A DNA stretch of 64,000 nucleotides from contig NZ_CP100445.1 of NCBI RefSeq assembly GCF_024227435.1, positions 310,001 to 374,000 on the forward strand, read 5' to 3'. This stretch comes from Natrinema caseinilyticum (GTDB lineage: Archaea > Halobacteriota > Halobacteria > Halobacteriales > Natrialbaceae). Made by a program: the position numbers and the translations under genes. Below, piece by piece: positions 1,054-11,135 of the stretch. Position 1 is the first letter of the stretch; each line of letters starts with the position of its first letter. Below the pieces are notes generated by a model. That model was given only the letters and a program-made list of their open reading frames with translations. It made no database searches and was not told the DNA's origin.

Positions 1054-2001
1054 TTACGATGTTGATGGGGCAAACTCCGGAATCACTTCCCGACGATAGA
1101 GTTCGAGTTGCCCGATGCGTTCAGACGTCGGTCCGACCGGCATCAGAACGAACTTGGTACACCCGGCGGCGACGTAGTTCTGAATCGTGTCAACGCACTC
1201 CGCGGGGGTCCCGAACGCCGTACATTCCTCGAACGTCTCCCTGGAAATACTGAGGTCTCGGCGCTCGAGAACTCGTTCTTGAACTCGACGGGCTCGGTCC
1301 GGGTCCCGATCCACGTGAGACAGCAGAATCACACCGGCTTCGTCACGATCGACCTCTCGTCCGGCCGCCTCACAGTACTCCATCAACCGCTCCAGTTTCG
1401 TACCGAACTCCTGTGGCGACATCAAAGCCGGGAACCAGCCGTCACCGTACTCGGCAACTCTGCGCAGGGCCGCGTCACTATTCCCTCCGATCCAGATGTC
1501 CAGCGCCCCTCGAGCCGGCTTTGGGTTTACCGTCGCACCGTCGAGGTGATAGTGCTCTCCGTCGTAATCGACGTCGTCCTCGGTCCAGAGGCGTCTCAGG
1601 AGTTCGATCGCCTCTCGGAGGTGTTCGGCTCGCTGCTCGGGTGAAATACCCACGACTTCGCAGAGTCGGGGGTCGGCCCCGAGACCGACTGCCATGATCA
1701 CCCGGTCACGCCCTCCCGTGAGATAGTCCAGATTCGCGTAGGTGTTCGCTACGTCGACCGGGTTTCGAGCCGGGAGCGTCAATACGCTGGGCCCCATTTT
1801 GATGTCCTGGGTTCGCGCAGCGATCGCGGACATCAGGACGGTGGGGTCCAGTGCTGGGTGCTCGGACAGAACGTGATCGGGCATCCAGAGTGAATCGATT
1901 CCTAACTCGTCGGCCCGCTCGACGTACCGAAACAGCTCCTCGGGTTCGGGGCATCCGTCGTGAAACTGCCCGAGACCAACGCCGATGGCGATATCGTCCA
2001 T
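1054..2001 (-). CDS. LLM-class (luciferase-like) flavin/F420-dependent oxidoreductase
   Basis: A bacterial-luciferase-fold TIM barrel of about 315 residues, of the type that in archaea usually uses coenzyme F420. Visible family features are IDSLWMPDHV near the N-terminus, the MAVGLGADPR strand, the RLWTEDDVDYDGEHYHLDGA segment and PKPARGALDIWIGGNSDAALRRVAEYGDGW. The substrate is unknown. The frame stays open upstream to 2283, but a TATA element at 2034-2039 places transcription start near 2010, so I chose the ATG at 2001 (2016 is the alternative). The divergent neighbour is an alpha/beta hydrolase. Confidence 0.85.
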   Translation of the reverse strand: MDDIAIGVGLGQFHDGCPEPEELFRYVERADELGIDSLWMPDHVLSEHPALDPTVLMSAIAARTQDIKMGPSVLTLPARNPVDVANTYANLDYLTGGRDRVIMAVGLGADPRLCEVVGISPEQRAEHLREAIELLRRLWTEDDVDYDGEHYHLDGATVNPKPARGALDIWIGGNSDAALRRVAEYGDGWFPALMSPQEFGTKLERLMEYCEAAGREVDRDEAGVILLSHVDRDPDRARRVQERVLERRDLSISRETFEECTAFGTPAECVDTIQNYVAAGCTKFVLMPVGPTSERIGQLELYRREVIPEFAPSTS

Positions 2002-2331
2002 GCCAACCACTAACATTGAATTGGGTGAGGTGGTATAAACGTTGGCTCGAAGACGACGCTGGATACCACCGAACGGGCGATGGGTCCACAGGATGCGTAG
2101 AATCGAAGCCGAAGATGAATACGACGCTCCACCGACGACTGTGGTGATCGATGGTGCGCTCACGCACCGGATCGAGTTCGGATCGATCGTCGAGGACGCT
2201 CGCGGTGAGTCCGAACCCGAGTCGATTCGAGCGGTCGCAGACGGGTCGGGGTTCGTCCGGCCAGTTTCCAGGGGGGTTGTCAACGTGAACCAAACTATAT
2301 GGTGCGTTGCGTGTAAAGCGTCGAGTCAGGA
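2002..2331. other. divergent promoter region
   Basis: Intergenic between the luciferase-like gene and the hydrolase. It contains TATA elements for both (minus strand 2034-2039; plus strand around 2292-2300, ACTATATGG). A plus frame of about 80 residues ends overlapping the hydrolase ATG but has no recognisable content. Confidence 0.5.
2034..2039 (-). promoter_or_regulatory. TATA box of the luciferase-like gene
   Basis: Reads TTTATA on the minus strand. About 26 bp downstream falls at position 2010, just before the ATG at 2001, supporting that start over the longer frame. Confidence 0.5.
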
Positions 2332-9097: not shown

Positions 9098-9149
9098 GGC
9101 TCTGTTGAAATCCTCAGAGGGTTACACGTTCGCCCGATAGTTTGATCGG

Positions 9150-9971
9150 ATGCAGGCCCTCCCGAAATCGCGGTTACTCCAGTTCGTTGAGAAGGCGTAT
9201 CACTTGGCTCGTCGAGCTGTTGCTCGCTACTCTTCAAAGTTCTCGAAACAGCGGTACACACTTCACCAGCACATCGTCTTGCTCTGTCTCAAGGTACGAA
9301 AGAACACGACGTACCGGATGCTGATCGATGAACTCATCGAGATGCCCCGGGTTCGGAATGCCATCGGCCTTGAGGAACTCCCTTCACCCTCAACGCTTTG
9401 TAAAGCGTTCAGCCGACTCGATATGGCGGTTTGGCGCGTTCTACTCAACCTCTCGGTCACACTCCTCCCGACCAACGGTGTCGTTGGTATCGACGCCTCC
9501 GGCTTTGACCGCAGTCACGCCTCGAAACACTACACGAAGCGAACGGAGTTGACGATTCAACAGTTGAAAGTCACGCTCCTCGTAGACACGAGAGCGAATG
9601 TTATCCTCGATTTGCACGTAACGACGACACGAAAACACGATTCACAGATCGCACCGACGCTCGTCAAGCGGAATACCGCTGAAGTTGCGATTCTTCTTGG
9701 CGACAAGGGATACGACGACGAGAAGATTCGCACGGTAGCCCGTGAAAACGGTGTACGTCCGCTCATCAAGCACCGCGAGTTTTCGTCGCTTCACAAGGCG
9801 TGGAATGCTCGACTAGATGCCGACCTCTACGGTCTGCGGAGTCAGAACGAGACAGTGAACTCTCGACTCAAACGCAGGTATGGAGCATTCGTCCGCTCAC
9901 GACACTGGTGGAAGCAGTTCCGTGAACTCGTTGTCGGCTGTCTCACTCATAACATCGAGAAGGCACTCTAA
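9150..9971 (+). CDS. IS5-family (ISH1-like) DDE transposase
   Basis: A 273-residue transposase with the DDE triad visible: D in GVVGIDASGFDRSH, D in ILLGDKGYDDEKI, and E in RSQNETVNSRLKRRYG with the following R. The N-terminal helices (SSKFSKQRYTLHQHIVLLCL) are typical of the haloarchaeal IS5 branch. Length is full and no frameshift is seen, so it may be active. It sits 52 bp from the left terminal repeat. No right terminal repeat occurs close to its stop; the matching end is 1.36 kb away beyond two passenger genes. Confidence 0.9.
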   Translation: MQALPKSRLLQFVEKAYHLARRAVARYSSKFSKQRYTLHQHIVLLCLKVRKNTTYRMLIDELIEMPRVRNAIGLEELPSPSTLCKAFSRLDMAVWRVLLNLSVTLLPTNGVVGIDASGFDRSHASKHYTKRTELTIQQLKVTLLVDTRANVILDLHVTTTRKHDSQIAPTLVKRNTAEVAILLGDKGYDDEKIRTVARENGVRPLIKHREFSSLHKAWNARLDADLYGLRSQNETVNSRLKRRYGAFVRSRHWWKQFRELVVGCLTHNIEKAL

Positions 9972-9999
9972 ATAGAGAGATCATAGATCGAAGTCTCCC

Positions 10000-10340
10000 T
10001 TACAGCCAGCCCTCTGGCAGTTCGTCCTGATGCCGGTCGATCAATTCGAGGAGGGGGCGTAACTCATCGAATGCGGGGCCTCGTGTGACGACGTTCTTCT
10101 CGCGGTTCCATTCGATGAGGCCAAGTGACTCAAGTTTCGGGAGGTGGGTGTGCGTCATCGCCATGAGCATCTCCTCTAACTCCTCGTCATCCGTGGTCAG
10201 GTCGTCGGGGATCGCTGCCTCGTCTTCGGGATTGTGATCGAGGAGCGTCATCAGGAGCCGCCTCCGGTAGGGATTTTCCAACAGGCCAAACGCTTCCTCA
10301 GACGTGAGTGCTCCGACCGCTCTCTCTCTCTCTCTCTCAT
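10000..10340 (-). CDS. winged-helix regulator (DUF7344-like), currently out of frame with its start
   Basis: The frame encodes a haloarchaeal regulator domain (SEEAFGLLENPYRRRLLMTL, then THTHLPKLESLGLIEWNR), about 106 residues to a C-terminal EGWL. The best start, ATG 10338-10340, is preceded by GGAG and a TATTTAAA promoter, but is followed by (GA)9 and is one frame off. With (GA)8 it would read MRERERAVGALTSEEAF in frame. An in-frame ATG further up (10482, overlapping the upstream gene's stop as TAATG) would add a basic, unfamily-like segment that runs through the TATA box. Passenger gene of the transposon. Confidence 0.65.
10321..10338. repeat. (TC)9/(GA)9 dinucleotide tract at the regulator start
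   Basis: Nine perfect TC units directly abut the complement of the ATG at 10338-10340. The unit length of two means each slip shifts the frame. Loss of one unit would restore the regulator frame. Confidence 0.9.
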
Positions 10341-10481
10341 GATTCTTACTGGGGGCTCCTTTCGGGAAGTCCGTCCCTGTAGTACAACCGCTTTTTAAAT
10401 ACTCCGCCAGTTGTCGACGCTGACGGTGGACCGTGCGTTGGGAATCCCGATATCGGGGGCACGCGTGGAGGAGACTGGGCA

Positions 10482-11135
10482 TTAGTCGGGTTTCGCTGCG
10501 AGCGCTTGGTCGACGACGGTGTCGAGCGCACGGCGCATTCGTTGAGAGGCGGCGTTCGGACTGATGCCGATGAGATCGGCGATTTCGCCGAGTTCGATGT
10601 CGCGTGGGATGTGCCAATACCCCTTCGCGTGAGCAGTCGCCAGAATGTCGTACTGTTCGCTACTGAGTTCGCCTTCTTCGAGCGGCTCACTAGGGATCGT
10701 GGGATTGTACAGTGCCTGCAACTGGAACTGGATGTCATTGTCGTGGCAGCGTTGGCGGAAGTCACCGAGCATCGACCGGTTTGCGAACTGGAGGCGAAAG
10801 TTCCAGCGATTCGCACTCCCTTCGGCGATCAGGACTTCGGCACGGCTCTCGATCATCGGCTTGATGAGCGCATCGATTTCGGTGCTCCAGCGAATCTCGA
10901 AGAGATGCCGTCCGTCGGCCTCCGTGAGCAGGTTGACCTCCTCTGCCAGTGGATCGCCGCGAATCGTGGCCTCGACGTCATCGGGGTTTGCCCCGTCAAC
11001 CCAAAACAGGGGGATGATCCCGTCTCGAAGGGGGATGACACGGACGAGTTCGATCTCGATGTCGGAATACTGTTCGAGGAGTTTTCCGAGCGCGAACTGG
11101 TCAGCCGGTATCTCGATATCGGTAATAACGGTCAT
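10482..11135 (-). CDS. HTH-10 (Bat-type) transcription regulator, transposon passenger
   Basis: A 217-residue stand-alone HTH-10 regulator of normal length. The N-terminal part (MTVITDIEIPADQFALGKLL, DIEIELVRVIPLRDGIIPLFWV) is the usual ligand/sensory half. The C-terminal HTH-10 is LSSEQYDILATAHAKGYWHIP followed by IELGEIADLIGISPNAASQRMRRAL. Start chosen at 11135 because residues before it are unlike the family. It lies leftward inside the IS5-type element and its stop overlaps an ATG in frame with the next passenger regulator (TAATG), so the two could be co-transcribed. Targets are unknown. Confidence 0.85.
   Translation of the reverse strand: MTVITDIEIPADQFALGKLLEQYSDIEIELVRVIPLRDGIIPLFWVDGANPDDVEATIRGDPLAEEVNLLTEADGRHLFEIRWSTEIDALIKPMIESRAEVLIAEGSANRWNFRLQFANRSMLGDFRQRCHDNDIQFQLQALYNPTIPSEPLEEGELSSEQYDILATAHAKGYWHIPRDIELGEIADLIGISPNAASQRMRRALDTVVDQALAAKPD

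Follow-up and report, generated by a model that had tools for sequence, protein, structure and literature searches.

A perfect AG repeat directly behind the start codon of a DUF7344 regulator gene in the haloarchaeon Natrinema caseinilyticum: a candidate slippage-prone frame switch

The nearest precedent for the locus described here is the MmyCI mod gene of Mycoplasma mycoides subsp. capri, which has an (AG)12 tract in the OFF state and an (AG)10 tract in the ON state (PMC3498834). As at our locus, the repeated AG unit lies in the coding region, the tract is of similar length, the sequenced allele is out of frame and ends early, and another number of units restores the frame. The mod gene, however, encodes a methyltransferase of a bacterium for which a clone with the other tract length is known and activity was shown to be lost and gained, whereas our locus is a single allele of a regulator gene in an archaeon. 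The bacterial contingency loci based on simple sequence repeats, as outlined in a 2025 review on phase variation (PMC11868660), likewise pair an intact gene with a short, perfect repeat at its 5' end and a frame that is set by the number of units. In those bacteria one finds a set of such loci, in contrast to the single tract reported here, which moreover resides in a polyploid archaeal host and is known from one sequenced allele. According to the same review, the spread of phase variation across the archaea is still to be mapped. A survey of homopolymeric tracts near gene starts (PMC2831843) also concerns 5' repeats at which slips abolish the protein, but the tracts are short A/T homopolymers and not a long dinucleotide tract, and in the sections available the 18 archaeal genomes covered yield no archaeal switch. 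In our literature search, which comprised mostly titles and the beginnings of abstracts, no archaeal gene with simple-repeat phase variation was found.

The window, by which we mean the whole stretch of 64,000 nucleotides that was analysed (contig NZ_CP100445.1, positions 310,001 to 374,000), contains a gene for a winged-helix regulator of the DUF7344 family on its minus strand (Table 1). The ATG at 10340 is directly followed by (AG)9 and then by CGGTCGGAGC; Tandem Repeats Finder describes the tract as 9.5 copies of CT with 100% match (10320-10338). The frame opened by this ATG reads M-RERERE-RSEHSRLRKRLACWKIPTGGGS and then meets a stop, after 29 codons in total. The DUF7344 frame, VGALTSEEAFGLLENPYRRRLL...ELPEGWL, is open over 105 codons to the stop at 10002-10000, but at the tract it is displaced by one frame from that of ATG 10340. 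Eight AG units (and also five or eleven) join the two frames, the removal of one unit giving M-RERERAVGA-LTSEEAF, whereas the nine units of the sequenced allele are out of frame. Two claims of an earlier sequence-only reading are thereby confirmed, namely that the ATG abuts (GA)9 out of frame with the winged-helix gene and that one unit less restores the frame. Its proposal that slips turn the gene on or off holds in part: the ATG at the tract is very probably the true start and the sequenced allele would be OFF.

Table 1. Features of the DUF7344 locus and its surroundings (positions within the window)
Feature	Position	Strand	Basis or remark
IS5-family insertion sequence (transposase 9150-9971)	9098..9972	+	PF01609; matches to IS5 family transposases
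Intact DUF7344 winged-helix domain (10003-10317) and stop codon	10000..10317	-	PF24035; alignment with 21 homologues
29-aa frame of the nine-unit state (OFF product)	10251..10340	-	Frame listing
Perfect (AG)9 directly 3' of the ATG	10320..10337	-	Tandem Repeats Finder; frame reading
Start codon ATG of the DUF7344 gene (probable true start)	10338..10340	-	Promoter spacing and starts of homologues
Non-coding spacer between the HTH_10 gene and the ATG	10341..10481	-	Low coding score; 3 acidic and 9 basic residues if read
TATTTAAA, probable TATA box	10394..10401	-	Lies in the core that matches L081
In-frame ATG, proposed alternative start, overlapping the HTH_10 stop (TAATG)	10480..10482	-	Disfavoured
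Tandem upstream gene, regulator of the bacterio-opsin-activator type (BAT + HTH_10), 217 aa	10482..11135	-	PF04967, PF15915

We propose that (AG)9 is a slippage-prone translational on/off switch of the frame of the DUF7344 regulator, seen here in its OFF state, the likeliest of the readings considered, at about even odds. Two properties of slipped-strand switching are directly visible: a perfect simple repeat at the start of the coding sequence that is longer than expected by chance, and a number of units that decides the frame and so defines ON and OFF states on paper. A tract, a frame break, a conserved start and an intact domain can all be read from the sequences, and the switch is supported by the fact that the repeat is uninterrupted, is unique in the genome, stands at a start codon that comparison validates and is followed by an unbroken domain.

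Apart from the tract, GA/CT runs of at least seven units are absent from the 4.77 Mb genome (three overlapping matches, all within the tract). Since under Markov models of the window, of first to fifth order, between 0.0005 and 0.00004 runs of 18 nt would be expected in a genome, (AG)9 lies far beyond what composition would produce. The genome-wide dinucleotide search covered the GA/CT and AC/GT types, and one long run of the latter type was found, (CA)13 at about 92462-92487 of G000:C1 (L141), apparently intergenic; a run of nine G or C does not occur in the genome. GA runs of eight or more units are present in 41 of the 125 genomes of the family, and runs of nine or more units in 39 of the 391 genomes of the class. 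Among haloarchaea a GA microsatellite is thus no rarity in itself; what is unusual is its placement. An ATG directly followed by (AG)6.5 or more was found in only one of the 391 class genomes, namely the present one. A possible second start of this kind (L110) was rejected, its frame being antisense to an open frame of 473 aa.

We inspected 48 distinct haloarchaeal tracts of eight or more units at 47 loci, 30 from the family search and 17 from the class search (13 further loci of the class search were repeats and were dropped). Judged approximately, by codon model and by eye, the great majority of them look intergenic, and at most four seem to be part of a coding sequence (those of the window, L056, L063 and L070). 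In L056 (G049:C2, about 1178-1962, minus strand) a (GA)12 run is located where two open frames meet, with 171 aa before and 100 aa after it in different frames, which one unit fewer would join. The neighbour is a TupA-like ATP-grasp gene (PF14305), and of the two halves only the second has homologues on plasmids. This locus is a second candidate for a repeat switch, its two halves being only putatively one gene. In L063 (G070:C15, about 1210-2002, minus strand) (GA)11 separates an N-terminal frame of the RR...C type (lipobox-like, by eye) from the frame that follows downstream; six C in a row are found close by, and the locus possibly represents a broken or switching surface lipoprotein. L070 (G077:C3, about 1478-1540, plus strand) shows a possible start, MMSDD, followed by (TC)8 in frame as Ser-Leu repeats, and is putatively coding. 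Pfam contained nothing for either half of L056, nor for the frames tested in L063 and L070. The genus g11 is rich in GA runs: each of its five species (G057-G061; L058-L062) has 28 to 224 overlapping 16-mer matches, and the runs, which reach 21 units in the loci inspected, are apparently mostly intergenic.

The protein encoded behind the tract matches PF24035 with 36.7 bits, against a curated cut-off of 27.8, over profile positions 3-76 of 76, and is thus a member of the DUF7344 family over the whole domain. Neither a stop nor a frameshift interrupts its 105 codons. The 21 aligned homologues have the same length and motifs; what distinguishes the gene from other haloarchaeal DUF7344 regulators is the repeat, which the homologues examined lack at their start. 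The closest homologue, L081 (genome G367), encodes a protein that is 76% identical, with a dN/dS of 0.087. Pairwise dN values between the proteins of the window, L081 and L082 are 0.157, 0.199 and 0.256, which split by branch into 0.05 for the window (the smallest), 0.11 for L081 and 0.15 for L082. The window branch thus appears to carry no excess of amino-acid change and shows no sign of long decay. As slipped-strand switching would have it, the rest of the gene is intact and under selection, with which a very recent loss is still compatible. Because the gene is otherwise unbroken and amino-acid change is low (dN/dS about 0.09), any loss of function would be recent or reversible.

NCBIfam has no model for either the DUF7344 or the HTH_10 gene, and a search of PDB sequences returned weak winged-helix matches only (HlyU, E 0.4). 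An AlphaFold model built on an alignment of two rows was of poor quality (mean pLDDT 52.9), with an order of helices that fits a winged helix and with residues 1-5 unstructured. No relative of the DUF7344 protein was found in viral contigs, and a scan of genome contigs yielded a single locus, in Halorussus aquaticus. The DUF7344 copy on the plasmid of this species (L038/L127) ends about ten codons early, after LELIHNH; L082 (G403), by eye otherwise the same protein, continues to DELPDDWL.

Upstream of L081 lies an HTH_10 gene with 75% identity over 215 residues, the spacer to the DUF7344 gene being 126 nt there versus 141 nt here. In 3 of the 14 loci searched a DUF7344 gene follows an HTH_10 gene on the same strand (L129, which is the place of L081, L128 of Halocatena marina, and L135). 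Within the genus the best relative of the HTH_10 protein is only 47% identical; on a Haloarcula pelagica plasmid a relative at 84% is found, there followed by a HalOD1 gene. So patchy a locus suggests horizontal acquisition. The IS5 element is a neighbour and no part of the proposed switch, and close copies of this element (84-87% identical) occur on many haloarchaeal plasmids.

The main rival to a frame switch is that a microsatellite has recently, and neutrally, knocked the gene out. The GA repeat would have expanded in the N-terminal tail, a dispensable part of one regulator among its paralogues, and then slipped by one unit, and any reversal would be a matter of chance without a role. We consider this possible, though on the doubtful side. 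Haloarchaea have many GA runs, mostly between genes, hence growth by slippage would need no selection, and such positions are more in keeping with neutral microsatellites than with a system of switches. The homologues point in the same direction. Tract length in homologues had been suggested as a check, and the tract is absent from all five of the nearest ones in which the start is readable (L081, L082, L009, L128 and L135), which counts against the switch. Preservation of the tract at the same place in relatives, a supportive and not a defining property, is therefore not seen, and since the homologues lack it the tract is, as far as the sequences compared go, a lineage-specific microsatellite. 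There are 15 DUF7344-like matches in the genome, and the loss of one of so many paralogues may be tolerable, which again speaks against a switch. So do the two MutS homologues of the genome, which would repair most two-base slips. An IS5 element inserted 28 bp beyond the stop codon is a further point in favour of neutral loss. On the other hand, the sole lesion of the gene sits at the one place where it can revert, the promoter and the neighbouring gene are intact, and the window branch has no excess of amino-acid change, although a very young knock-out would be compatible with all of this.

An error of one unit in sequencing, PCR or assembly, the true allele having eight units and the gene being on, we regard as improbable. 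Polymerase-based library steps do stutter at dinucleotide runs, but the genome is assembled in three contigs with a completeness of 99.83%, and a rough and insensitive scan over 61 coding segments in the window, which left the DUF7344 gene itself unflagged, revealed no further clear break of a frame. Weak expression of the nine-unit allele through ribosomes that shift frame on the AGA/GAG repeats, the tract setting a level and not a strict off, is very improbable: AGA is a rare codon in a GC-rich genome and slippery codons recur along the tract, which would make some loss of frame plausible, but a -1 or +2 shift would be required, an unusual direction at rare arginine codons.

Everything depends on whether translation begins at ATG 10340. 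By comparison of sequences this ATG is very probably the real start of the DUF7344 gene, so that the number of units would determine if the cell makes the regulator, and the sequenced allele, with nine units out of frame, would be OFF. A promoter core of 22 nt, TATTTAAAAAGCGGTTGTACTA (10380-10401), begins 61 nt before the ATG, and the best match to this core within 3.3 kb of L081 (16 of 22) has precisely the same offset from the ATG there. The shared HTH_10 neighbour of L081, with its spacer of similar length, agrees with this start. No convincing counterpart of the core was present near the start of L009, L082 or L038. Transcription is predicted to begin at about 10371; a scan for sigma-70 promoters and terminators, which does not cover archaeal promoters, gave nothing. 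Of the promoter and GGAG that the sequence-only reading had placed before the ATG, the former stands, its spacing being kept in L081, whereas the latter is unconvincing: at 15 nt before the ATG it is too far away for a convincing Shine-Dalgarno site. In L129, L128 and L135 in-frame stops are found 30, 48 and 15 nt upstream of the first aligned codon, respectively. These proteins must therefore start at the domain, probably with MEPEPASS, MDVGDALQL and MEVTCVE, and the homologue starts fall at the place equivalent to ATG 10340.

The same evidence speaks against the in-frame ATG at 10482, which had been named as an alternative. It does exist, its overlap with the HTH_10 stop is an arrangement typical of coupled genes, and an open frame runs from before it through the tract to the stop; by termination and reinitiation the nine units would then be in frame and encode Glu-Arg repeats inside a protein of 160 aa. 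Nevertheless, as a start it is highly unlikely. The 48 residues from this ATG to the tract include 3 acidic and 9 basic ones with a GC3 of 0.56, versus 25 acidic and 9 basic residues and a GC3 of 0.74 for the domain. The coding score, for which 32 of the window's genes served to train a codon model, is -0.19 before the tract and 0.34 after it (the 5th percentile of real genes being 0.125), and since the DNA before the tract thus scores as non-coding, a start at 10482 is not to be expected. The conserved promoter would moreover lie inside the extension, and in the three tandem homologues such an extension is impossible. A coupled start at this ATG was consequently rejected, the extension having neither coding character nor conservation in the tandem homologues.

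In the proposed frame switch, the gene would be transcribed from the TATTTAAA promoter and translated from ATG 10340. With eight units (or five or eleven) the ribosome would read MRERERAVGA into the domain and the regulator would be made; with the nine units of the sequenced allele, or with seven, it would leave the frame and soon meet a stop, after about 29 codons in the case of nine units. Each unit gained or lost at replication would toggle the gene, and the length change would have to be frequent, to occur in both directions and to matter to the cell. Slippage in vitro has been reported for PolB and PolD, the replicative polymerases of the euryarchaeon P. abyssi, and in the same study PCNA inhibited it, a point against the switch (PMC4134008). 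In Haloferax volcanii gene conversion equalises the genome copies in the absence of selection, and heterozygous cells can be selected for (PMC4056108), which suggests to us that switching in a polyploid should pass through mixed states. In a polyploid haloarchaeon such as this one, a slip would accordingly be expected to give a mixed cell first and to become fixed by gene conversion afterwards. That haloarchaea in general employ frame switching by simple repeats in the bacterial style, with polyploidy resulting in mixed gene copies and a graded instead of an all-or-none response, is a tentative suggestion that we hold to be rather doubtful.

A regulator gene whose start codon abuts a slippable tract offers a clean and cheap test case for phase variation in archaea. 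If both lengths were present in one culture, it would mean a bet-hedging switch of the bacterial type in archaea, and it would raise the question of how such a switch operates where cells are polyploid and gene conversion takes place. If the length were fixed, the locus would still teach how genes in the GC-rich genomes of haloarchaea are broken by microsatellites.
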